Assembly: GCF_018499875.1 (NCBI RefSeq)
Contig: NZ_JAHBAY010000006.1
Span: 186,001-250,000, forward strand
From: Kineosporia corallincola
GTDB lineage: Bacteria; Actinomycetota; Actinomycetes; Actinomycetales; Kineosporiaceae
DNA length: 64,000 bases
Reading direction: 5' to 3'
Shown here: positions 7,758 through 27,224 of the stretch, piece by piece
How positions within the stretch are numbered: position 1 is the stretch's first letter
How the letters are laid out: each line of letters begins with the position of its first letter
Made by a program: the position numbers and the translations under genes
Notes under the pieces: model-generated
What the model saw: only the letters and a program-made list of their open reading frames with translations
Database searches by the model: none
Told to the model about the DNA's origin: nothing

Positions 7758-8819
7758 TCACACCGGCGCCGCGACCACCGTGATCACCCGGTCGATCTCC
7801 TCGATGATGGCCCGGGTGGGGGCGCCCGACGAGGCGATCCGGCGGATCTCCAGCAGCTTGTTCAGGGTCGCCCGGTCGGCCTGCGCCAGCACCTCCTCGG
7901 CCCGCTTCTCGGCCAGCTCGCGCTGCGCCTCCTCGTGGTTCACCTGGCCGCCGTTGAACAGCGTCTCCAGCGCCGCCATCAGCCGGGACAGCACGCCGTG
8001 CACCACGTCGGCCGCGAAGCCGCCGATCAGCGCGACCGCCGGCCGGGCCAGCCCGGAGAGCCCGTCGTCACCGTTGCCCAGCGGGATCAGCTCGGCGATC
8101 ACCAGCCCGGACGCCATGCCGAGCAGGATCCGCTGGAGGAAGGTGTGGTCGAACTCCGGGTCGTAGCTGCCCCGGGCCACCTCCCGCCCGGCGCGGTAGA
8201 CGGCGGTCAGCCCGGCCCCCAGCGCGGCGGCGGTGAGCAGGAACAGCTCGCGCAGCAGGAGCGCCGCGAAATCCGGCTCCCGGTAGGTGTATCCGGCACT
8301 CACCCGGCGCGCCTCCGGCACCGCGGCCAGCAGCACGAAGGCCACCAGGAACACCACGGTCGCGGTCATCAGCCAGCGCACCAGGGGCACGGTGCTGCCG
8401 GCCGGGGGCACGACGGTCTTCTTCGGCGTGCGGGACGAGGAGGCGGGGCGGCCCTGACGCGGGATCTGCCCGCCCGGGCGGGGTGGCCGCCGGCCCTCCC
8501 GGTAGTCGTGCAGAAGCTCCAGGGTGGCCGGGCGGGCCGGGGCCACCACCCGGCTGAGCTCCCGGTGCGCCCGCACCAGGGCCTCGGTCGCGAGCATCCG
8601 GTCGGAGTCCGTCGGCGGGGTGTTCCACCCGTCGCCGTTCAGGTCGACCACGGTGCGGTCGCGCACCGCCTCGAACATCCAGGCCTGCGGCGCCGGGGTG
8701 AGTCCCAGGTCCAGGACGTGGGCCAGCATCACCTCGACCTGCCGGCGCAGACGGTCGACTTCCTGTCCCTTACCCGCCTCGACGTTCCCCAGGGCGGTCA
8801 GTGTCGTCTCCGGAACCAT
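7758..8819 (-). CDS. Unrecognised membrane protein with cytoplasmic N-terminal half
   Basis: A 353-aa protein I do not recognise. The first 140 residues are soluble and contain [17 protein letters not shown] and a helical [17 protein letters not shown] Pro/Arg linker follows, then three to four hydrophobic segments ([68 protein letters not shown]). The C-terminus is charged and helical, probably a coiled coil ([20 protein letters not shown]). I chose the ATG at 8819 because AGGGGA precedes it by 5 nt; the ATG at 8843 has no such site. It follows the fumarase gene with no operon partner. A gating or anchoring role is possible, but nothing shows it. Confidence 0.75.
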
Positions 8820-11528: not shown

Positions 11529-12896
11529 TCAGTACCAGCCGACGGACTGGCTGTGCGCCCAGGCACCGCACGGGGTGCCGTAGCGCTCGGCGATGTAGTC
11601 GAGGCCCCAGCGGATCTGCGTGACCGGGTTGGTCTGCCAGTCGGAACCGGCGCTGGCCATCTTGCTGCCGGGCAGCGACTGCGGAATACCGTAGGCACCG
11701 GACGAGGCGTTGGTGGCCTGGTAGTTCCAGCCGCTCTCCTTGGTCCAGAGCGAGTCCAGGCAGCTGAACTGCGACGAGGACCAGCCGCGGTCGGCGAGCA
11801 GCAGCTTGGCCGCGGACTTCGGGTCGCGCTGCGCGTTGCGCAGGGCCTTCTCGCGGCGCTCCGCGGCGGCCTTGATCCGGTCGGCGGCGGCCTTGGCCTG
11901 CTTGTACTGCGACAGGGCGGCCTTCGCCTTGGCGGGCGAGGCGTCCTTCACCGAGGCCTTGAGGTCCTCGGCCTCCTCGGCCTTGTCCTGTGCCTCCTTC
12001 AGGGCGGCGGCGGTCTCGGCCTCTTCGTCGTCCAACGCCTGCTGCTCGGCGGCGGTGAGCGCGAAGGCCGACGAGGCGGACGAGCTGTCGCTGTCGATCG
12101 GCGAGGCGTTGCCGGCGAGCTGGGTGACCGCGACGCCCTCGGCGCCCACGACGAGCGCCATGACCAGCAGCCGGGCCGCGGTGGACTTGCCGCCGCCGAA
12201 CAGCCGCCGCGGTGAGCTCTCGGGCGCCTGCTGCACGGGGCGGCCGGCGGTCTTGGCGCGGCGGGGGTCGGCCTCGACACCGTCGGTGGTGAGGTCGAGA
12301 CCCCACTCGGCCGGGTCGACGCCGGCTGCGGCCGGTGCGCGGAACTCGATCGGTGCGGTGGGCGGCTGCGGGGCCTGGCCGCCCTGCTGGCGTTCCGGCG
12401 CCGGGATGGCGATCGGCACCAGCGGGGGCCGACGGTCGGGCTGCCGGAAGGCGTCTTCGGAGACCGGGCGCGGCACCGGCATGTCGATGCCGGCGGGACG
12501 CCACGGGTCGGTCTGCGGGATCGGCAGGACGGCGGGAGTGGGGGCCACCGCGACCGGGTAGCGCGCCTGGAGGGTGGAGCGGCGCGTGGCCTCGGGACTG
12601 CGCATGGCGCTGGCCGGGGCCGGGGGCCGCTGCCGGCCGGCGGGCGCCCCGGTGGGGCGGCTACCGCTGGGGCGGCTGTTGCTCGGCCCGCCGGAACCGC
12701 TGCCCGGGCGTCGTGCTGCGGCACGGGCCTCGGCCCTGCGCAGCTCCGACCGCTTGGGGAAGCTCTTGGTCTCGCCTCGGACCGAGGTGGGCACCCCTCC
12801 TGTGCTCAACCACGCGTCCGCGAGGTCTTCATCGTTTTCAGACCCAACGGTTGCCGTCACGCGGACTACCGTGGCGAATCGGAACGACGAGCACAA
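11529..12896 (-). CDS. Membrane-anchored lysozyme-fold (transglycosylase-like) wall protein, paralogue 1
   Basis: A protein of about 455 aa with three parts. The N-terminal half is long, low-complexity and Pro/Arg/Ala-rich. One hydrophobic segment follows (ARLLVMALVVGAEGVAVTQLAG), then an Ala/Lys/Glu-rich coiled coil. The last 85 residues form a lysozyme-like domain with LWTKESGWNYQATNASSGAYG, GIPQSLPGSKMASAG and NPVTQIRWGLDYI. The glutamate in TKESGW is the expected catalytic residue, so the protein probably cleaves peptidoglycan outside the membrane. The start is unclear: TTG at 12896 and GTG at 12860 are both possible. The tandem neighbour at 13116 has the same final domain, ending GWY, so the pair arose by duplication. 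Confidence 0.8.
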   Translation of the reverse strand: MCSSFRFATVVRVTATVGSENDEDLADAWLSTGGVPTSVRGETKSFPKRSELRRAEARAAARRPGSGSGGPSNSRPSGSRPTGAPAGRQRPPAPASAMRSPEATRRSTLQARYPVAVAPTPAVLPIPQTDPWRPAGIDMPVPRPVSEDAFRQPDRRPPLVPIAIPAPERQQGGQAPQPPTAPIEFRAPAAAGVDPAEWGLDLTTDGVEADPRRAKTAGRPVQQAPESSPRRLFGGGKSTAARLLVMALVVGAEGVAVTQLAGNASPIDSDSSSASSAFALTAAEQQALDDEEAETAAALKEAQDKAEEAEDLKASVKDASPAKAKAALSQYKQAKAAADRIKAAAERREKALRNAQRDPKSAAKLLLADRGWSSSQFSCLDSLWTKESGWNYQATNASSGAYGIPQSLPGSKMASAGSDWQTNPVTQIRWGLDYIAERYGTPCGAWAHSQSVGWY

Positions 12897-13070: not shown

Positions 13071-13132
13071 ATCGATACCAGCCGGTGGCCAGATCAGTAC
13101 CAGCCGGTGGCCAGATCAGTACCAGCCGGTGG
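13071..13132. repeat. 22-bp tandem repeat overlapping a stop codon
   Basis: Units lie at 13071-13092, 13093-13114 and 13115-13132 (partial, 18 bp), reading ATCAGTACCAGCCGGTGGCCAG. The third unit holds the last codons and TGA of the wall-hydrolase gene, so the other two are copies of its 3' end placed just after the stop. The unit is not a multiple of three. Confidence 0.9.
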
Positions 13133-13877
13133 ACCGACTGTGCGCCCAGGCGCCGCACGGGCTGCCGTAGCGGTCCTCGATGTAGTTCAGGCCCCACTTG
13201 ATCTGGGTGGCCGGGTTGGTGCGCCAGTCCTTGCCCGCCGTGGCCATCTTGCTGCCAGGCAGCGACTGCGGGATGCCGTAGGCCCCGGAGGAGGAGTTGG
13301 CCGCGGTGTGCCGCCAGCCGCTCTCCTTGTTCCACAGCTTGACCAGGCAGGTGTACTGGCCGGACTTCCAGCCGCGCTGGGCCACCATCACCTTGGCGAT
13401 GGCCCGGGAGGAGCGCGGAGTGCTCCGGGACGCCTTCTTGCGGGCCTGCTCGCGGCGCTTCTGCGCGGCGGCCTTCTTCTTGGCGGCGGCCTTCTTCGCC
13501 GCGGCTTTCTTCTGCGCGGCCTTCTTCTGCGCCGCCGTCTTCTCCGCGGCCGTCTTCTCCGCGGCCAGCCGGACCTGGGCGGCCAGCCGGATCTCGGCCA
13601 GGGCGGGGGTCTGCACCGCGGTGCGCAGACCGATCCGCGGAACCGTGGCGACCGCGCCGCCGGCGAGGGTGGCGCTGGTGAGAGCGGTACCGCCGGAGGT
13701 GCCGGTGGAGCTGTAGATCGTGCTGCCGGTCAGTTCGATCCGGCCGGTCAGGTCCAGTTCGGCGCCCTGAACGGCGCCGGACGAGGCCTGGGAGTGCGGG
13801 GCGGTGGCGAGCGAGGCGCCGGAAACGGCTCCGAGGAGCACGACCACCGAGAGGGTGCGCAGGGCGCTGGGAACCAC
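13116..13877 (-). CDS. Secreted lysozyme-fold (transglycosylase-like) wall protein, paralogue 2
   Basis: A 253-aa exported protein. I chose the GTG at 13877 because GAAAGG lies 6 nt upstream and a classical signal peptide follows at once (MVPSALRTLSVVVLLGAVSG, cleavage near ASA/APHSQA). GTG at 13925 is the alternative. The middle is an Ala/Lys-rich coiled coil with repeated KKAAAKK units, likely wall-binding. The C-terminal domain of about 85 aa (LWNKESGWRHTAANSSSGAYG ... TQIKWGLNYIEDRYG) is a close paralogue of the neighbouring gene and carries the same candidate catalytic glutamate in NKESGW. It presumably trims peptidoglycan during growth or cell separation. Confidence 0.85.
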   Translation of the reverse strand: MVPSALRTLSVVVLLGAVSGASLATAPHSQASSGAVQGAELDLTGRIELTGSTIYSSTGTSGGTALTSATLAGGAVATVPRIGLRTAVQTPALAEIRLAAQVRLAAEKTAAEKTAAQKKAAQKKAAAKKAAAKKKAAAQKRREQARKKASRSTPRSSRAIAKVMVAQRGWKSGQYTCLVKLWNKESGWRHTAANSSSGAYGIPQSLPGSKMATAGKDWRTNPATQIKWGLNYIEDRYGSPCGAWAHSRSTGWY

Positions 13878-16012: not shown

Positions 16013-16780
16013 CTAAGCCCCGTAACGGCGCTCGCGCTGGGCGTACTGCCGCAGGGCCCGCAGAAAGTCGACCTTGCGGAAGTCGGGCCACAGCGCCTCG
16101 CAGAACGAGAACTCGCTGTGCGCGCTCTGCCAGAGCAGGAAGCCGGACAGACGCTGCTCGCCCGAAGTGCGGATGACCAGGTCCGGATCGGGCTGGCCCT
16201 TGGTGTAGAGGTGCTCGGCGATGTGGTCGACGTCGAGGATCTCGGCGAGCTCCTCGATCGTGGTGCCGCGCGCGGCGTGGTCGGACAGCAGCGAGCGCAC
16301 CGCGTCGGCGATCTCGCGGCGGCCGCCGTAGCCGATCGCGATGTTCACCATGCGCGGGCAGCCGACCTCGCGGGTCTGCTCCTCGAGTTCCTTGAGCCGG
16401 CCCGAGGTGGCCGCGGGCAGCAGGTCGAGGGCGCCCACCGGGTGCACCTGCCAGCGGCCGGTGGCCGCGATCTCGCCCGCGACACCCTCGGAGATCTGGA
16501 ACAGCGCGGAGAGCTCCTCGGGCGAGCGCCCGGTGAGGTTGTCGGTGGACAGCAGCCACAGCGTGACCACCTCCACGCCCACCTGGTCGCACCAGCCGAG
16601 GAACTCGAGAATCTTGGCGGCACCGGCCCGGTGGCCGCCGCTCGCGTCGAGCCCGGAGTTCTTGGCCCACCGCCGGTTGCCGTCGAGGATGACCCCGATG
16701 TGACGGGGAATCGCCTGAGGCGACAGGCCTGCCAAGACGTTTCGCTGATAGGCCCGGTAGACCAGCTGGCGCAGTCCCAT
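16013..16780 (-). CDS. cis-prenyl diphosphate synthase, probably short-chain (Z-farnesyl type)
   Basis: UppS-family enzyme (255 aa) that adds IPP units in cis. The catalytic aspartate is in VILDGNRRW (Asp33). IGYGGRREI, RTSGEQRLSGFLLWQ and the C-terminal EALWPDFRKVDFL motifs are all present. The usual FSTENW stretch reads LSTDNLTGR, like the mycobacterial Rv1086 Z,E-farnesyl diphosphate synthase. The next gene is hemolysin III, as next to Rv1086. I therefore infer a C15 product, which is a primer for polyprenyl carriers, rather than full undecaprenyl synthesis. The start is the ATG at 16780; a GTG at 16789 is possible. The window also holds ispH upstream and uppP downstream in the same pathway. 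Confidence 0.88.
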   Translation of the reverse strand: MGLRQLVYRAYQRNVLAGLSPQAIPRHIGVILDGNRRWAKNSGLDASGGHRAGAAKILEFLGWCDQVGVEVVTLWLLSTDNLTGRSPEELSALFQISEGVAGEIAATGRWQVHPVGALDLLPAATSGRLKELEEQTREVGCPRMVNIAIGYGGRREIADAVRSLLSDHAARGTTIEELAEILDVDHIAEHLYTKGQPDPDLVIRTSGEQRLSGFLLWQSAHSEFSFCEALWPDFRKVDFLRALRQYAQRERRYGA

Positions 16781-16982
16781 GAGCCTCACGCTATCGCTGT
16801 CTTGAGGGTGGGTTGTAGCGAAGTGCCCGTTCTTCAAGCTGTCGGCGCATTCTCGAAACCTGAAAGTGACATCCATCCGGCCGTGCACGGGACCTATGAC
16901 CACGTCAAGGGGACTGGACCCCCGAAATGCCGAGTGGTTCGCCCACCGCCAATCTCCAGGAAGGCGGTCTACTCTCGGTGCG

Positions 16983-20866: not shown

Positions 20867-21754
20867 TCAGATCACCGGCGGACGGCCCGCCCGGGTCATC
20901 CGCCAGACCGCCTTCCAGCCCATCTTGCGGCGCGGTCCGCTCTCCAGCGTGAGGCCCTGCCAGTAGCCCTTCATCATCTCCATCGCGTCGTCCTTGCGAC
21001 GCAGGCGCAGCGCGGAGATGGTGAACCAGACCGAGACGTAGACGATGCCGATCGGCATCGGCAGGTTGCGCCGGGCCAGCCAGACCCGGTTGCGAGCCGA
21101 GAACCGGTGGAACACGCTGTGCCGGGTCGGCGCGATCACCGGGTGGTTCACCACGATCTCGCCGTCGTAGCGCACCCGGTAACCGGCGTCCCACACCCGC
21201 CAGGCAAGCTCGATGCCCTCGTGGGCGTACCAGAACGGGGCCGGCCAGCCGTCGGTCGCGGCGAACACGTCGCGGCGCAGGGCCACGCCGCCCTCCCAGA
21301 TCGCGGCCACGTCGCTGCTGCGGTGCGGGTCGCCCACCCGCAGCCGGGGCGTCCACCGGCGGGGCGAGGGCAGGCCGTCCGGGTCGGCCACCCGGGGCTG
21401 GATCAGGCCGACGCCGGGCTCGTCGACGAACCGCTGGGCGATCAGCGCCAGCGTGTCGGAGGTCGGCAGGAACGCGTCGTCGTCGAGAAAGAACAGCAGT
21501 TCGCCCTGCACGTAGGGCACACCCGCGTTGCGGCCGGCCGGGATGCCGAGGTTCTCCGGCAGGGCCACACCGCGCACACCCTCGGGCAGGCCGGTCGGCT
21601 CCCAGCCGTTGCCGACCACCACCACGTCGGTGATCACGCCACGCTGGGCCAGCACCGAGCGCACGGCCCGGTCGAGCGTCTCCGGGCGGCTGCCCTGGGT
21701 CAGCAGCACCACGCCGTAGCGGGCCACCGGCAGGGACTTGAGCTGGGGAGTCAT
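20867..21754 (-). CDS. GT2-family glycosyltransferase
   Basis: Cytoplasmic GT-A glycosyltransferase of 295 aa. The N-terminal nucleotide-sugar fold shows VVLLTQGSRPETLDRAVRS, NLGIPAGRNAG and the DXD-type metal motif FFLDDDAFL. The acceptor region has APFWYAHEGIELAWRVWDAGYR, typical of rhamnosyl- and galactofuranosyl-type transferases. A hydrophobic stretch near the C-terminus (MPIGIVYVSVWFTISAL) may touch the membrane. The start is the ATG at 21754 with AGGAGG 8 nt upstream. It is the last gene of a three-gene operon with two CDP-alcohol phosphotransferases, so it probably glycosylates the lipid or polymer they make. Confidence 0.9.
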   Translation of the reverse strand: MTPQLKSLPVARYGVVLLTQGSRPETLDRAVRSVLAQRGVITDVVVVGNGWEPTGLPEGVRGVALPENLGIPAGRNAGVPYVQGELLFFLDDDAFLPTSDTLALIAQRFVDEPGVGLIQPRVADPDGLPSPRRWTPRLRVGDPHRSSDVAAIWEGGVALRRDVFAATDGWPAPFWYAHEGIELAWRVWDAGYRVRYDGEIVVNHPVIAPTRHSVFHRFSARNRVWLARRNLPMPIGIVYVSVWFTISALRLRRKDDAMEMMKGYWQGLTLESGPRRKMGWKAVWRMTRAGRPPVI

Positions 21755-21783
21755 CGCCTGGTCCTCCTGTTCCGTCACGGCGC

Positions 21784-22623
21784 TCACCGAAGCCGCGCCG
21801 AGGAGAGGACCGCGGCCAGGTGACCCACCAGGGTCACCAGGCCCGCCAGGACCAGACCCACCAGCAGCACCTCGGTGGCCGTGTAACCACCCACCACCAG
21901 GTCGATCACGGCTGCCGCGAGGATCAGCAGAGTCAGCTCGACCGAGTGGAACACCCGGTGGAAGGGCACCAGCCGGGCCACCCGGCGCAGCGTGCGCACG
22001 GCGCCGGCGCTGGGCACCCGGACCTGCTCGACGTCTTTCATGGCAGGCATGCCGGCGTAGTGCCGCGAGACGTGCACCAGGTCGTTCTCCACCTTGTTGA
22101 GGGCCACCAGCAGAGCCAGCAGCGCACCGAGGAACAGGGCCGGGTCGGCCAGGGCCCCGAGCAGCCCGGCCCACCAGCCCGTTCCGTCGGCCACGACCGC
22201 GGGGCTGTGGCCGAGGCCGTCACCGTTCGCGACCCGGACGCCGAGGGCGAGCGCGATGCCGCACTCCGCCACGTAGTGCCCCACCCGGTCGAGGTAGACG
22301 CCGACCGGTGAGGACGTGCCCCGCCACCGCGCCACCTCCCCGTCCGAGCAGTCGAACAGCATCTGGAGCTGCACCAGGAAGGCGGCCAGCAGGGCACCGG
22401 CCAGGCCGGTCCAGGCGGTGGACAGCGCCGCCAGCGCGGCCGAGGTGATCATCAGCCAGGTGACCTGGTTCGCCGACAGCCCCATGGCCAGCAGCGGACG
22501 GGTCAGGTAAGGCGAGATCTGCCGGAGGTAGGCATGTGCCACCCAGTGCTCGGCGGCGGCCCGGGAGCGAACGTGCTCGGGCTGTGCGACGCGCCGGAGC
22601 TCGGCGATGGTGGGCCCGCTCAT
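21784..22623 (-). CDS. CDP-alcohol phosphatidyltransferase with atypical final motif residue
   Basis: Integral membrane enzyme (279 aa, about six transmembrane segments) of the family that moves a phospho-alcohol from a CDP-linked donor to an acceptor. The signature D-x2-D-G-x2-A-R-x8-G-x3-D-x3-D appears as DCSDGEVARWRG then VGVYLDRVGH. The last aspartate, the proposed catalytic base, is a histidine here. The start ATG (22623) overlaps the stop of the upstream gene by 4 bp, so the two are translationally coupled. It may act as a partner to the larger phosphotransferase or use an unusual acceptor. The GT2 gene follows 29 bp downstream. Confidence 0.85.
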   Translation of the reverse strand: MSGPTIAELRRVAQPEHVRSRAAAEHWVAHAYLRQISPYLTRPLLAMGLSANQVTWLMITSAALAALSTAWTGLAGALLAAFLVQLQMLFDCSDGEVARWRGTSSPVGVYLDRVGHYVAECGIALALGVRVANGDGLGHSPAVVADGTGWWAGLLGALADPALFLGALLALLVALNKVENDLVHVSRHYAGMPAMKDVEQVRVPSAGAVRTLRRVARLVPFHRVFHSVELTLLILAAAVIDLVVGGYTATEVLLVGLVLAGLVTLVGHLAAVLSSARLR

Positions 22624-24398
22624 CGGGCGGCTCCGATCCATGACTTGAGACTGGTTCCGGCCGAGGTCACGGCGACCACGGCGGTGAGTGCCCAGAGACC
22701 GCCGGTGACCCAGTCCTCGGTGTCGAGGGGGAGCAGCAGGCCGGGCAGGAAGATCAGCACGATGAAAGCGACGATCCGCAGGTCCGCACCGATGACCAGA
22801 CCGGCCGAACCGGCACCTTCGCGCACCCCGTACGCCTGGAGGTAGTGCGCCACCGCGATCACCGCGACCAGCATGACCGCGGCGCCGTGCTGCGCCTCGA
22901 CCGCCGAGCTGAGCAGGTAGACGAGCGCCGTCTCGGCCACCGCCACGACGGCCGGGGCGATCACCGCGGACCGGCCGCGCAGACGCTGGAGAACGGCGCC
23001 GAGCCAGGGACCGGTGTCGGCCGGGACGGCGGCCGCCAGGTCGCCGGCCAGCGAGCGGGCCCGCGACGTGAGGGCGGCCAGCAGGTAGACGGCCGCGCCC
23101 AGACCGAACACGCACAGCAGGATCAGCGTGGCCTTCGGGGTCCACAGCGCCGCGCCGAGCGAGATCACCAGGAAGCGCTCGCCGATCGGGAAGTGACCGA
23201 TGCGCTTGAGCCAGCCGGTGACCCCGAAGGTGTCGGTGGCCGAGCTGAAACCACGTGGGACGCGGACCGGTTCGGCCGGGGCGACCCAGGAGACCGGCGC
23301 CGGGACCACCGGGCCGGCCAGCTGCGCGCGGCGCAGCGACCAGGACAGGTCGGCCAGGCTGCGGAAGGTCTGCACGCCGATCGCCAGCGCGGCCAGCGGC
23401 CACAGGTCCTGGTCGGCGCGGGCCCCGGCGACGGCCAGGGCGAAGATCACCGCGAACTCCTTGATCCGGTCGGTACTGGCGTCGAGCCAGGCGCCCAGCC
23501 GGGAGAAGCGGCGGCGGTAACGGGCCAGTTCGCCGTCCACGCAGTCGACGACGACGCAGAGCTGGAGCAGCAGCGCACCGATCACCGCGGGAAGCCGGTC
23601 GCCGGAGGCGATCAGCACGGCGGCGACCAGGCCGAGCACGAACGAGCCGGCGGTGACCTGGTTGGGGGTCAGGCCCAGGCGCTCGGCCGGGCCGGTGAGC
23701 CGCCAGGACAGCTTGCGCAGCACGAAGGTGGAGAAGAAACCGTCACCACCACGGGCCGCCTCGCGCAGCCGCACCCGGCGCTCAGGCACGGCGGCCAGCG
23801 CCCGGACCGCTGTGTCGGCCTGCTCGGCGTCGGCCGGGCGGGCCCAGAGGTAGCCGCCGATCTGCACCGGCTGCACCGTGACACCCGCGCCGGGCAGCCG
23901 CCGGACCAGCTCGATCAGGAGGTCGTCCGGGGCGGCCGGGTCGAGGTCGTGGATCAGGCCGCCGGCGGCGGGCCGGTCGGCGGCGTCGATCTTGAGCACG
24001 TCGAGCAGCTCGTACGTCTCGTCACCGCCCGCGACGGCGGAGGCCAGCGCTCCGGTGCGCACCCGGGGGTGGTCGAGTACCGCGCCCAGGGCGGTGCCGT
24101 TGACCACCAGCTCGGCCGGGATCAGTGCGACCGGGCGGGCCGGGACGGCGTTGGCGCCCTCGACCGGGGCGCCGCCAGGTGCCTGCGGCCGCCCGGCCAC
24201 CGCGCGGGCCAGGGCCTCCGGGCCGCCGGGGCTGCCGATCGTGACGATCTGCTCCCGGGCCACCGTGATGCCCTGCTCGCCGAGGGCGGCCCGCAGGGCA
24301 TCGACCCGGGAGGGTACGTTCGGGTGAAGAACGAGGAAAACCACGTCGAGACCGGCTTCGGCGGGAGAAATCGTCACCCCTGCGGCGGTTGCGCTCAT
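22620..24398 (-). CDS. Cytidylyltransferase-like region fused to CDP-alcohol phosphotransferase and DUF5941-like domain
   Basis: A protein of about 592 aa. Residues 1-180 look like a decayed nucleotidyltransferase (VVFLVLHPNVPSRVDALRAA, ARPVALIPAELVVNGTAL). The segment GGDGFFSTFVLRKLSWRLTG then leads into a complete CDP-alcohol phosphotransferase motif, DCVDGELARYRR ... LGAWLDASTD, with all aspartates. A third, multi-spanning C-terminal part resembles DUF5941. This order recalls the two-domain inositol-phosphate cytidylyltransferase/DIPP synthase enzymes, though the N-terminal part lacks a clear glycine-rich donor loop. The start is uncertain: ATG at 24398 follows GGAGG at 11 nt, and ATG at 24473 is the alternative. 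It is the first gene of the surface-polymer operon. Confidence 0.8.
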   Translation of the reverse strand: MSATAAGVTISPAEAGLDVVFLVLHPNVPSRVDALRAALGEQGITVAREQIVTIGSPGGPEALARAVAGRPQAPGGAPVEGANAVPARPVALIPAELVVNGTALGAVLDHPRVRTGALASAVAGGDETYELLDVLKIDAADRPAAGGLIHDLDPAAPDDLLIELVRRLPGAGVTVQPVQIGGYLWARPADAEQADTAVRALAAVPERRVRLREAARGGDGFFSTFVLRKLSWRLTGPAERLGLTPNQVTAGSFVLGLVAAVLIASGDRLPAVIGALLLQLCVVVDCVDGELARYRRRFSRLGAWLDASTDRIKEFAVIFALAVAGARADQDLWPLAALAIGVQTFRSLADLSWSLRRAQLAGPVVPAPVSWVAPAEPVRVPRGFSSATDTFGVTGWLKRIGHFPIGERFLVISLGAALWTPKATLILLCVFGLGAAVYLLAALTSRARSLAGDLAAAVPADTGPWLGAVLQRLRGRSAVIAPAVVAVAETALVYLLSSAVEAQHGAAVMLVAVIAVAHYLQAYGVREGAGSAGLVIGADLRIVAFIVLIFLPGLLLPLDTEDWVTGGLWALTAVVAVTSAGTSLKSWIGAAR

Positions 24399-24859
24399 GG
24401 TCGGGGGAACCTCCGGAGCCACCGGGGCGTTGTCACGTACAGTGACGGCAGTGCCGGTGCGGCGACGGAACATGGTTCCGGCCGAACGCCCTCGCGCATC
24501 CACCCTGTGGGATCCGTTCTCTCGGTCTCGAGTCGAAAGACATTAGCACTGCGTTCATGTGCCGGTCGCCCTGATGCCCGGTCTCGTTCCCCCGGGCGCG
24601 AAGTTTAAAACCTTCGCGAAAAGTCACCGCATGTGACCACATAGCTTTCACACAGCGGCAACATCACACAGAGCGATCATCATCGGGGAGACGCAGAACA
24701 CTTCCGGGGCGTGTAACGATCTGAACGCGAAACGACGATCAGGCAAACGAGCCGCCACCCTGGAAGCGGAGCCCGGACACGGCGAGACACAGCTCCCACA
24801 TAAACTGCGCGCCGGTCCCCCGACCACGACCATTCCCACGAAGGAGCACCAGACCCCCG
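24399..24859. other. 460-bp divergent promoter region of the surface-polymer cluster
   Basis: Separates the phosphotransferase operon (minus) from the TagF-like gene (plus). It is less GC-rich than its surroundings, notably AAGTTTAAAACCTT near 24601 and ACATAAACTG near 24800, consistent with two promoters. No family-like frame or strong hairpin is seen. Part of the left end (24399-24473) may be coding if the upstream start is used. Confidence 0.6.
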
Positions 24860-26407
24860 ATGGCGCTGCCGACCTCCGTCTCCAACTTCCTCCGCTCACC
24901 CAGCCCGGCCACGCTGGGGGCTCTGGCCAACACGATCAACAACAAGCGGCGCAACCTGCGCCGCGGCTCGGTCAAGCCGCGCGGCCCACGGCTGAACCGG
25001 GTGCCCGAGGGCCCGGCGCCGGCCGCCGAGGTGGTCATCTACTTCGCCGAGGACAAGCGGAAGATGTACCAGCTCGACCAGTGGCTGCCGGTTTTCGAGG
25101 AGCTGCACCGGCGGCACCCGCTGGTGATCGTGATGCGGTCCAAGCAGTCGTTCAACCACCTGAGCGAGCGCACGCCGCTGCCCACCGTGTACACCCGCCG
25201 GCTGGCCGACGTCCTGGAGCTCTACGACGAGCTGGACCCGAAGGTGGCGATCTACGTCAACAACGGCGTCGCCAACTTCCAGTCGCTCGCCGTCGCGTCG
25301 ATCCTGCACGTGCACGTCAACCACGGTGAGAGCGACAAGGTCAGCATGGTCTCGAACCAGGCCAAGGCCTACGACCGGGTGTTCGTCGCGGGTGAGGCCG
25401 CCGAGCGCCGGCACGCCGCCGCGCTGATCAACTTCGACTACGGCAAGCTGATCCGGACCGGCCGCCCCCAGCTCGACCTGAAGTTCGAGCCGGTGCTGGC
25501 GCCGTCCCCCCGCAAGACCGTGATCTACGCCCCCACCTGGGAGGGCGAGAACGACTTCAACAACTACACGTCGGTGGACCGGTACGGAGCGGCGATCGTG
25601 CGCCAGCTGCTGACACTCGACGACGTCCGGGTGGTCTACCGGCCGCACCCGCGGGTGGCCAGCAGCACCACGCTCGACGTGATCGGCGGCCACAAGGAGA
25701 TCCTCTCGCTGCTGGACCACGCCGCGGCGGCCGACCCGGAGGCCGGGCACGCCACCGCGATGGAGGGCTCGATCCTGGCCCTGTTCCAGGAGTGCGACGC
25801 GATGGTGACCGATGTGTCCAGCGTCGGCCTGGACTTCCTCTACCTGCGCAACGACGCCCCGCTGTTCATCACCGACCGTCGTGACAACCCGGCCCAGCTG
25901 GCCGTGGACGCCCCGATCTCCGGCGCCTCCGACGTGATCAACAGCGACACGATCGACGAGTTCGGCGCCGTGCTGGCCTCCCGGCTGGAGTTCGACTCCC
26001 GCATGCAGGAGCGAATCGCCAAGCGCCGCTTCTACTTCGGCGACATCGCGCCGGGCGAGAGCACGCAGCGGTTCCTCGATGCCGTCAGTACCGTCGCCGC
26101 CCAGCGCGACGAGATGGTGGCCCGGCTGCCGCACCGCCAGACGCACGCCGCCGGCGCGGCCGCGGCCACCGGCGACATGGCCGGCGACGTGACCCCGGCC
26201 GAGGCCGATTCCGGCTACGGGCACACCGAACTGCTCGAGGCCATCGAGGAAGCCATCGAAGAGGCGATCGAGACGCCCGACGACCCGGAGGAGAACCCCG
26301 TGGACAGCGACGAGAACCGGACGGACGCGGACCAGCCGCGCGAGAACCCCCAGGGCGAGGTGGTGGCCGACCCGGCCCCGGTGGGAGACGTGGCAGGCCG
26401 CCGCTGA
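24860..26407 (+). CDS. CDP-glycerol glycerophosphotransferase (TagF-like) family protein
   Basis: A 515-aa peripheral membrane enzyme of the Glyphos_transf family, which polymerises glycerol- or ribitol-phosphate into teichoic-acid-like polymers. The C-terminal catalytic half shows KTVIYAPTWEGENDFNNYTS, VVYRPHPRVASS, the ECDAMVTDVSSVGLDFLYLR segment and APLFITDRRD, all typical of TagB/TagF. The last 90 residues are an acidic low-complexity tail (ATP-, Glu- and Asp-rich) that other family members lack. AAGGAG lies 13 nt before the ATG. A glycerophosphodiesterase gene follows after 4 bp, matching synthesis and turnover of a glycerol-phosphate polymer. Confidence 0.88.
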   Translation: MALPTSVSNFLRSPSPATLGALANTINNKRRNLRRGSVKPRGPRLNRVPEGPAPAAEVVIYFAEDKRKMYQLDQWLPVFEELHRRHPLVIVMRSKQSFNHLSERTPLPTVYTRRLADVLELYDELDPKVAIYVNNGVANFQSLAVASILHVHVNHGESDKVSMVSNQAKAYDRVFVAGEAAERRHAAALINFDYGKLIRTGRPQLDLKFEPVLAPSPRKTVIYAPTWEGENDFNNYTSVDRYGAAIVRQLLTLDDVRVVYRPHPRVASSTTLDVIGGHKEILSLLDHAAAADPEAGHATAMEGSILALFQECDAMVTDVSSVGLDFLYLRNDAPLFITDRRDNPAQLAVDAPISGASDVINSDTIDEFGAVLASRLEFDSRMQERIAKRRFYFGDIAPGESTQRFLDAVSTVAAQRDEMVARLPHRQTHAAGAAAATGDMAGDVTPAEADSGYGHTELLEAIEEAIEEAIETPDDPEENPVDSDENRTDADQPRENPQGEVVADPAPVGDVAGRR

Positions 26408-26411
26408 TCCG

Positions 26412-27224
26412 ATGACCGAGAACAACGCACCGACGCACACCACACCGGCTCCCCCGTCCCGGGGCCCGTTCGGGCCGGGACTGGCGATCGCCTCGCACCG
26501 GGGCTTCGGCAAGAACGTCGACGGCTGGCCGGAGAACTCGCTGCCGGCCTTCCGCGAGGCCGTCCGCTACGGGGTGCCGTGGCTGGAGGTCGACGTCCGG
26601 CGCACCCGCGACGGCGCACTGTTCGTGCACCACTGGCCGAGTGTGGGGGTGGACGACGGACGCTTCGTCTCCGACCTGACCGGCGACGAGGCGCGCAAGG
26701 CCGGGCTGCTGGCCCTGGACGACCTGCTCGAGGTGGTGCCGAAGCACGTCGGCGTGATCTACGACGTGAAGACGGCGATGGAGGACGCCCTGCTGCCGCC
26801 GTCCCGGGACACCACCGCCCTGCTGCTGCCGGTGCTGGACGCCGAACGCGACAGGCCGCAGCTGGTGACGTCGTTCGACCCCGCCTCACTGCTCTTCGTG
26901 GGTCAGGAGATGCCCGGCGTGGCGCGCGGGCTGATCACCTGGATCTCGTTCCCGATGCGCAAGGCCGTGCCGGCCGCCGCCCGGCTGGGCGTGGAGGTGC
27001 TGTCGGCGCACTGGAAGTCGTTCGGGCCCAACGGCACCGACTCGGCCCCGCACCACCGCCCGGCCGAGTACGCGATCGACATCGCGCACCGGGCCGGGGT
27101 GCAGGTGCTGGCCTGGTCACCCGCCATGGGGCCGGCCGCGGAACTGGCCGCGGCCGGGGTGGACGCCCTGGTGGTGGACGACGTGCCGGGCGGCCTAGCC
27201 CTGGCCCGGGGCCTGGACCGCTGA
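26412..27224 (+). CDS. Glycerophosphodiester phosphodiesterase
   Basis: Metal-dependent hydrolase (270 aa) that splits glycerophosphodiesters to glycerol-3-phosphate and an alcohol. The TIM-barrel catalytic residues are visible: IASHRGFG (His29), PENSLPAFREAV (Glu41), WLEVDVRRTRDG (Glu59, Asp61) and LFVHHW (His73/74). There is no signal peptide, so it should act in the cytoplasm. It starts 4 bp after the TagF-like gene, so the two are co-translated. It overlaps the convergent small membrane-protein gene by 30 bp. In context it may recycle polymer or phospholipid head groups. Confidence 0.92.
   Translation: MTENNAPTHTTPAPPSRGPFGPGLAIASHRGFGKNVDGWPENSLPAFREAVRYGVPWLEVDVRRTRDGALFVHHWPSVGVDDGRFVSDLTGDEARKAGLLALDDLLEVVPKHVGVIYDVKTAMEDALLPPSRDTTALLLPVLDAERDRPQLVTSFDPASLLFVGQEMPGVARGLITWISFPMRKAVPAAARLGVEVLSAHWKSFGPNGTDSAPHHRPAEYAIDIAHRAGVQVLAWSPAMGPAAELAAAGVDALVVDDVPGGLALARGLDR

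Follow-up and report, generated by a model that had tools for sequence, protein, structure and literature searches.

A five-gene locus lies in a 64,000-nucleotide stretch of the Kineosporia corallincola genome (contig NZ_JAHBAY010000006.1, positions 186,001 to 250,000; referred to here as the window). With a probability of roughly 0.6, judged from sequence comparison and predicted structures, it represents the Kineosporia version of an actinobacterial module that would build a lipid-linked polyol-phosphate glycopolymer of the teichoic-acid type. The core of the module is a trio of genes encoding a fusion protein with a CDP-alcohol phosphotransferase core (FUS), a second CDP-alcohol phosphotransferase (CAP2) and a family 2 glycosyltransferase (GT2). 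A surface-polymer cluster is the likely reading, and it was considered the best one because relatives of the trio adjoin TagGH-like ABC exporter pairs, LCP ligases, TagF-like enzymes and cytidylyltransferases.

An initial annotation had described the locus as five genes in two divergent groups. All five were present at the positions given there, and in a profile search each protein exceeded the curated Pfam cut-off of its own family. The features are as follows.

20867 to 21754, minus strand: GT2, family 2 glycosyltransferase, encoded last of the three minus-strand genes (PF00535, 39.3 bits)
21784 to 22623, minus strand: CAP2, second CDP-alcohol phosphotransferase (PF01066, 27.6 bits, cut-off 22)
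22620 to 24398, minus strand: FUS, cytidylyltransferase-like, CDP-alcohol phosphotransferase and DUF5941-like fusion (PF01066, 40.7 bits, cut-off 22)
24399 to 24859, no strand: intergenic region dividing the two divergent groups, from the gene coordinates
24860 to 26407, plus strand: TagF-like polyol-phosphate transferase with an acidic tail (PF04464, 39.5 bits, cut-off 22.1, residues 156-409)
26412 to 27224, plus strand: glycerophosphodiester phosphodiesterase (GDPD) family protein (PF03009, 69.4 bits, cut-off 23.6)

The CAP2 and FUS genes overlap by 4 bp, an alternative GTG start of GT2 at 21787 would make it overlap CAP2 as well, and the TagF-like and GDPD genes are separated by 4 bp. FUS begins with an ATG (24398) preceded by a GGAGG site, which a longer GTG start at 24503 lacks. 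The order GDPD, TagF-like and divergent FUS-CAP2-GT2 was identical in five Kineosporia assemblies (the 8.2 Mb genome studied here, G002, G003, G004 and L055), and the cluster is therefore not a chance arrangement. In a sixth (G005) FUS and CAP2 were adjacent and were the only two of the genes seen. The window FUS shared 70-75% identity with its counterparts in K. mesophila, K. babensis and K. rhizophila, and the genes flanking the cluster, housekeeping-like by eye, were kept in three of the other loci (G002, G003 and G004).

Conservation across Actinomycetota

A contig scan with the FUS alignment and two patterns from conserved FUS stretches gave 449 relatives, the best 80 of which were used as loci for comparison, with genes outside the window called by a purpose-written G+C-frame script. 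CAP2 was linked to FUS in 68 of these 80 loci and GT2 in 64, and the complete trio was present in 64, counts that are lower bounds as many of the loci were on short contigs. Also nearby were TagF-like genes (42 loci), ABC ATPases (44) and permeases (32), both including weak matches, a glycerol-1-phosphate-dehydrogenase-like gene (32) and a nucleotidyltransferase (NTP transferase; 58, including 26-31% matches to other nucleotidyltransferases, with 54 more than 50% identical to a reference). The thresholds for these partners were loose and some of the ABC and NTP transferase matches were to other genes. Taken together, the sequence comparisons identify FUS-CAP2-GT2 as a conserved actinobacterial module and, if the proposed function is correct, it would serve as a marker for an actinobacterial surface polymer.

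Twelve loci were without CAP2. Two of these (L094 and L102) were on short contigs and the other ten spanned approximately 20 kb each; these ten and L102 formed one Streptosporangiaceae group in the FUS tree, and a TagF-like gene at approximately 31% identity was present in four of the ten. Among Streptosporangiaceae loci with neither CAP2 nor GT2, four (L062, L065, L066 and L104) had a TagF-like gene nearby, accompanied in L062 by an IspD-SDR fusion. Both kinds of FUS locus were seen within one genome in Planotetraspora mira and others.

The same association was examined in an independent set of 396 genomes, sampled evenly from Actinomycetota. DUF5941 was detected in 18 of the genomes and a strong CAP2 match (E<1e-30) in 21, the present genome included. 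A strong CAP2 was encoded on the same contig in 17 of the 18 DUF5941 genomes, within 3 kb in 16 and approximately 14 kb away in G162, and the remaining genome (G257) had no CAP2 match at that threshold. FUS and CAP2 therefore travel together by these sequence matches, in a module confined to a small part of the phylum. The module also occurred in freshwater metagenome-assembled genomes of the Nanopelagicales type, and one locus labelled Bifidobacterium breve (L088) grouped with freshwater actinobacterial metagenome-assembled genomes (100/100) in the FUS tree; that record is probably mislabelled or contaminated.

The gene set had been described as unusual, and this holds insofar as it occupies a small part of the phylum, with DUF5941 in 18 of the 396 sampled genomes. 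It recurs across Actinomycetota, however, and a Streptomyces form is in print; the idea of a set seen nowhere else was rejected given the many FUS loci, the sampled genomes and that report (PMC13118837). The accessible text of that paper ties to teichoic acid a Streptomyces synteny block with a CDP-alcohol phosphatidyltransferase, GT2, tagG, tagH, araM and a sugar-phosphate nucleotidyltransferase; it offers synteny only, leaves FUS unnamed and contains no function test in the part available. Genes of matching types, namely CAP2, GT2, the NTP transferase, the dehydrogenase-like gene and the ABC genes, were found in five Streptomyces loci (L069, L095, L101, L116 and L129). The Kineosporia locus differs from the Streptomyces block in having no NTP transferase, glycerol-1-phosphate dehydrogenase or ABC genes, and in having the TagF-like gene and GDPD. 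The pair of membrane enzymes, FUS and CAP2, is unusual but occurs in many other actinobacteria, and the function proposed for it is putative. The FUS cluster was not described in the accessible parts of papers on the umbrella toxin (PMC13274773), CglA (PMC11481543) and Streptomyces teichoic acid (PMC7300013). The literature searched, which covered few subscription papers and makes absence weak evidence, contained no mention of DUF5941 and no structural work on a Kineosporia wall polymer.

Two lineages of FUS and their partner genes

A tree of the FUS core had two sides separated with support of 100/99. One held the 26 rows, the window included, with a TagF-like gene of at least 35% identity and no dehydrogenase, and the other held all 32 rows with the glycerol-1-phosphate-dehydrogenase-like gene. 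Each label required one change on the tree against approximately 19 in shuffles, although the labels were mutually exclusive by rule and the separation is partly by construction. Twenty-three tree rows had no label, and L120, with both genes and a TagF-like match of 35.8%, was assigned to the dehydrogenase side. Thirteen of the 42 TagF loci also had the dehydrogenase, and in twelve of these the TagF-like match was below 35%. The tree program warned of long branches meeting at the point where Kineosporia joins, making the exact position of that join unsure.

The TagF-like gene was opposite in direction to FUS in all 25 labelled loci of its clade. In 20 of the 22 loci from outside Kineosporia its same-strand neighbour was an NTP transferase; the remaining two, L090 and L121, are on contigs that end at the TagF-like gene. 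None of the genes sought lay between TagF and FUS in 10 of the 22, as in the window. In the second clade the dehydrogenase-like gene (NF002022, E 6.2e-66; 222.8 bits, below the cut-off of 413) adjoins the NTP transferase gene. An IspD-SDR fusion, like ribitol-5-phosphate enzymes in sequence, adjoins the TagF-like gene in the three Streptosporangiaceae loci examined (L059, L062 and L120), and LCP proteins are encoded near FUS in L059, L061, L080 and L120. The initial annotation had allowed for either a surface polymer or a soluble phosphodiester; the partners in the relatives favor the surface polymer and make a soluble DIPP-like product unlikely.

Fold and catalytic motifs of FUS

The predicted model of FUS consisted of a degenerate cytidylyltransferase-like domain (residues 13-204), a phosphotransferase core (approximately 217-447) and a DUF5941-like part of four helices (approximately 464-592). 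FUS is a CDP-alcohol phosphotransferase both by its PF01066 score and by the eight-residue signature D1xxD2G1xxAR...G2xxxD3xxxD4, which was complete, including the fourth aspartate, in the window protein and in all 80 relatives. In the model the N-terminal part folds as a nucleotidyltransferase, and structure comparison placed this fold ahead of the membrane core as in AF2299 (4o6m) and IPCT-DIPPS (4mnd) of Archaeoglobus fulgidus, bearing out the earlier suggestion that the order of the fusion resembles inositol-phosphate cytidylyltransferase/DIPP synthases. Absence of this fold, or orthologues scattered elsewhere, would have refuted the initial annotation; the fold is present in the model and most orthologues were clustered.

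The likeness to these enzymes did not extend to catalysis by the N-terminal domain. A cytidylyltransferase loop pattern devised for this analysis, [AG][AG]GxGxR, was not found in the window FUS and was matched loosely in two of the 80 relatives, as against its presence in all 54 stand-alone cytidylyltransferases, and a working cytidylyltransferase within the fusion is not supported. The score against the IPCT-DIPPS model NF041135 was 69.6 bits, far below the cut-off of 580, and the structural match to IPCT-DIPPS stopped at residue 446, ahead of the DUF5941-like helices. FUS as a two-headed, working IPCT-DIPPS was ruled out because the catalytic loop is missing, with the low score telling against it as well. 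FUS thus differs from IPCT-DIPPS and AF2299 in the missing loop, in four additional C-terminal helices in its model and in the surface-polymer genes that neighbor its relatives.

The nearest fold to residues 217-592 in a structure search with the predicted model was that of cholinephosphotransferase. The model has the 10-helix fold, including the C-terminal four helices, of CHPT1 and CEPT1, and in its model the DUF5941-like C-terminus gives FUS a likeness to these eukaryotic cholinephosphotransferases, which are lipid-acceptor enzymes. In the accessible text of PMC4634129, lipid-acceptor CDP-alcohol phosphotransferases are described as typically having 3-4 extra C-terminal helices, and the available part of PMC10182977 describes CHPT1 as having 10 helices and a fold different from that of prokaryotic homologues, while mentioning bacterial forms in tandem. 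To judge from its model, FUS may be a bacterial counterpart of the CHPT1 fold, and if the proposed reading is correct DUF5941 would gain a fold and a likely role in providing extra helices for a lipid acceptor. Identity between FUS and CHPT1/CEPT1 (8ul9, 8gyw, 8ero and 9uet) was 11-13%, and at the places of the proposed catalytic residues of xlCHPT1, E129 and H133 in helix 3 (PMC10182977, available part), FUS has alanine at both (GAWLDASTD). Both structures used here, for FUS and for the TagF-like protein, are predictions, helical bundles inflate Z scores, and the structure-based FUS alignment comprised the window and 46 of the 80 loci.

The DUF5941 label had also been given to the window protein. 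The window FUS had no match to PF19365 (DUF5941) at E<=1 and its genome none at E<=0.001, and the label was rejected as an assignment from Pfam alone. Three proteins among the scanned relatives match PF19365 at 43-122 bits in a region that aligns with the window FUS.

An altered active site in CAP2

CAP2 carries the signature DCSDGEVAR...GVYLDRVGH in the window, with His116 in the place of the fourth catalytic aspartate (D4). Of 76 best matches, eight, which fell on the FUS open reading frame itself, were excluded, as was L108, unreadable at this position; in the 67 readable relatives D4 was histidine in 64 and alanine in three. CAP2 exceeds the PF01066 score threshold without having the D4 aspartate and, because this residue is replaced, it is by sequence a divergent relative of the family and not a canonical member. 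The seven other signature residues were invariant in all 68 rows, the window included, as were E25, H26, W27, K177 and R213, and CAP2 therefore looks to have been kept by selection with a changed active site. The fourth aspartate of CDP-alcohol phosphotransferases is described as the likely base and termed absolutely conserved in the accessible text of PMC4634129, which also reports that its change to asparagine nearly abolishes the activity of a PIP synthase with substrate binding retained.

These observations bear on whether CAP2 is an enzyme at all. It could be a structural partner of FUS that binds the CDP-polyol as one half of a heterodimer or as a donor-loading subunit. This alternative, which concerns a single step and is compatible with the teichoic-acid-type reading, is possible but doubtful. 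The replacement of D4 in every readable relative, by alanine in three, agrees with such a role, as do the loss of activity with binding kept in the PIP synthase and the adjoining positions of the two genes, which overlap in the window and lie side by side in the TagF clade. The invariance of the remaining signature residues and of the five further positions, however, resembles selection on an active site, and histidine is able to serve as a base. If the proposed reading is true, CAP2 is a natural test of the need for the fourth aspartate in CDP-alcohol phosphotransferases.

The TagF-like protein and the GDPD

Membership of the TagF-like protein in PF04464 was indicated by the curated score and by conserved histidine and Asp-Ser motifs. 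The residues H155, G156, H263, P264, D318, S320 and S321 were invariant in the 27 rows of an alignment that combined the window protein with proteins from 26 of the 42 TagF loci, and these motifs are presumably the catalytic ones of TagF. The best Foldseek match of the predicted model was TagF (3l7l, E 4.1e-12), with UDP-GlcNAc 2-epimerases tying in Z. The catalytic GT-B domain of TagF (residues 313-724; 3l7i-3l7m) and its motifs are probably common to both proteins, whereas nothing in the match corresponds to the part of TagF ahead of residue 313 and the window protein is short with an acidic tail. The tail, noted in the initial annotation, is real and was mostly of low confidence in the predicted model. 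An acidic tail as long as that of the window protein was present in the three Kineosporia rows of the alignment, and some Streptosporangiaceae rows had shorter, different ones.

A simple scan of the GDPD found no hydrophobic segment, and the protein is therefore probably cytosolic. It was linked to FUS in five of the 80 loci, three of which were Kineosporia, and a weaker GDPD match (30%) was located approximately 6.5 kb from FUS in L100. The GDPD may have a recycling role.

Candidate pathway genes outside the cluster

The NTP transferase of the TagF clade was not found in the K. corallincola genome, where, in a comparison that included positive loci, none of 12 NTP_transf_3 places matched either of the two TagF-type reference proteins (L045 and L047) at an E value below 1. 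A TagD-like gene is located alone on contig C11 (TIGR01518, E 1.8e-37, 128 bits, cut-off 165), and the copies in the other five Kineosporia genomes searched were 90-91% identical to it. Weaker matches occurred in 13 of 18 other genomes, three of the six with a strong FUS match and ten of the remaining twelve, and the gene is therefore not specific to the Kineosporia variant. By sequence, this TagD-like enzyme may replace the missing cytidylyltransferase.

An ABC-2 permease and ATPase pair at 60 kb on contig C6, approximately 148 kb from the cluster, was 39% and 57% identical, respectively, to the pair of a Streptomyces cluster, and its neighbors include an LCP protein gene and a GT2 gene that shares 61-64% identity with genes close to FUS in L059 and L120. 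For a wall teichoic acid set, the genome thus has candidates for the exporter, LCP ligase and CDP-polyol synthase, all unlinked to the cluster; by homology the TagD-like, ABC pair and LCP genes are candidates, no more, for donor supply, export and attachment. The surrounding region (L138, 48-68 kb on contig C6) is a glycopolymer region with the ABC exporter pair, the LCP protein, two glycosyltransferases and a UDP-GlcNAc 2-epimerase, and some of its genes resemble genes near FUS clusters elsewhere. Approximately 19 kb past the window (269-270 kb on C6), a CDP-alcohol phosphotransferase is divergent to a TagD-like cytidylyltransferase (L144:6879-7625 and 7939-8367; TIGR01518, E 1.8e-15) beside genes that by eye are exopolysaccharide-like; the region may hold a second polyol-phosphate system.

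Proposed pathway and alternative explanations

The following pathway is inferred in all its steps from sequence, synteny and predicted folds. A cytidylyltransferase encoded elsewhere, with the TagD-like enzyme as the best candidate, would make a CDP-polyol, probably CDP-glycerol, and GT2 would put a sugar on a lipid carrier. FUS would then transfer polyol phosphate from the soluble CDP-polyol to the membrane lipid-sugar; the cytidylyltransferase-like domain at the N-terminus of FUS would have a structural or binding role and no catalytic one. CAP2 would carry out a second related transfer with its altered site, histidine for aspartate, or act as the partner of FUS. Further polyol phosphate would be added by the TagF-like enzyme, and export and wall attachment would fall to the TagGH-like ABC pair and LCP ligase approximately 142-148 kb away. 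The cytosolic GDPD may cleave glycerophosphodiester by-products or failed intermediates.

A more detailed proposal, held tentatively, is that the pair of CDP-alcohol phosphotransferases primes or decorates an actinobacterial teichoic-acid-type polymer, with the 10-helix FUS acting on a lipid-linked sugar and CAP2 working with its histidine or partnering FUS. The donor of the second clade would be sn-1 (archaeal-handed) CDP-glycerol provided by glycerol-1-phosphate dehydrogenase and a dedicated cytidylyltransferase, and Kineosporia would have swapped this donor supply for the TagD-like enzyme.

The product could instead stay in the membrane, as a phosphoglycolipid or a lipoteichoic-acid-like polymer formed when FUS and CAP2 load a GT2-made glycolipid, with no wall attachment. 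Cholinephosphotransferase, the nearest fold to the FUS core and C-terminus, is a maker of membrane lipids, and the Kineosporia exporter and LCP candidates are unlinked to the cluster. This alternative is nevertheless unlikely, given that relatives adjoin TagGH-like exporters and LCP proteins and that a TagF-like gene is linked to FUS in over half of the 80 loci. Ordinary phospholipid synthesis by FUS and CAP2 from CDP-diacylglycerol donors, with unrelated neighbors, is scarcely credible: both belong to PF01066 and have weak matches to NCBIfam PIP-synthase models, but the scores (53.5 bits for FUS and 36 for CAP2) are far below the cut-off of 170, six other PF01066 places in the genome are available for lipids, the one whose neighborhood was read (269 kb on C6) adjoining polymer-type genes, and their genes show conserved linkage to those for GT2 and TagF-like proteins.

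A soluble phosphodiester, such as a DIPP-like compatible solute made in the manner of IPCT-DIPPS and recycled by the GDPD, is a very improbable product. The low NF041135 score, the absent cytidylyltransferase loop, the end of the IPCT-DIPPS match before the DUF5941-like helices and the surface-polymer genes beside the relatives all count against it.

Other genes of the window

A gene of the undecaprenyl-diphosphate-synthase family (16013-16789; PF01255, 233.5 bits) is located approximately 4 kb from the cluster and remains near it in three other Kineosporia loci (G002, G003 and G004). From its family, it is a possible candidate for the maker of the lipid carrier. Two adjoining minus-strand genes (11529-12605 and 13116-13877) encode products with a similar C-terminal stretch (...GAYGIPQSLPGSKM...) and look like paralogues; the product of the second had a weak SLT transglycosylase match (23.4 bits, cut-off 21.3) and that of the first had no Pfam match.

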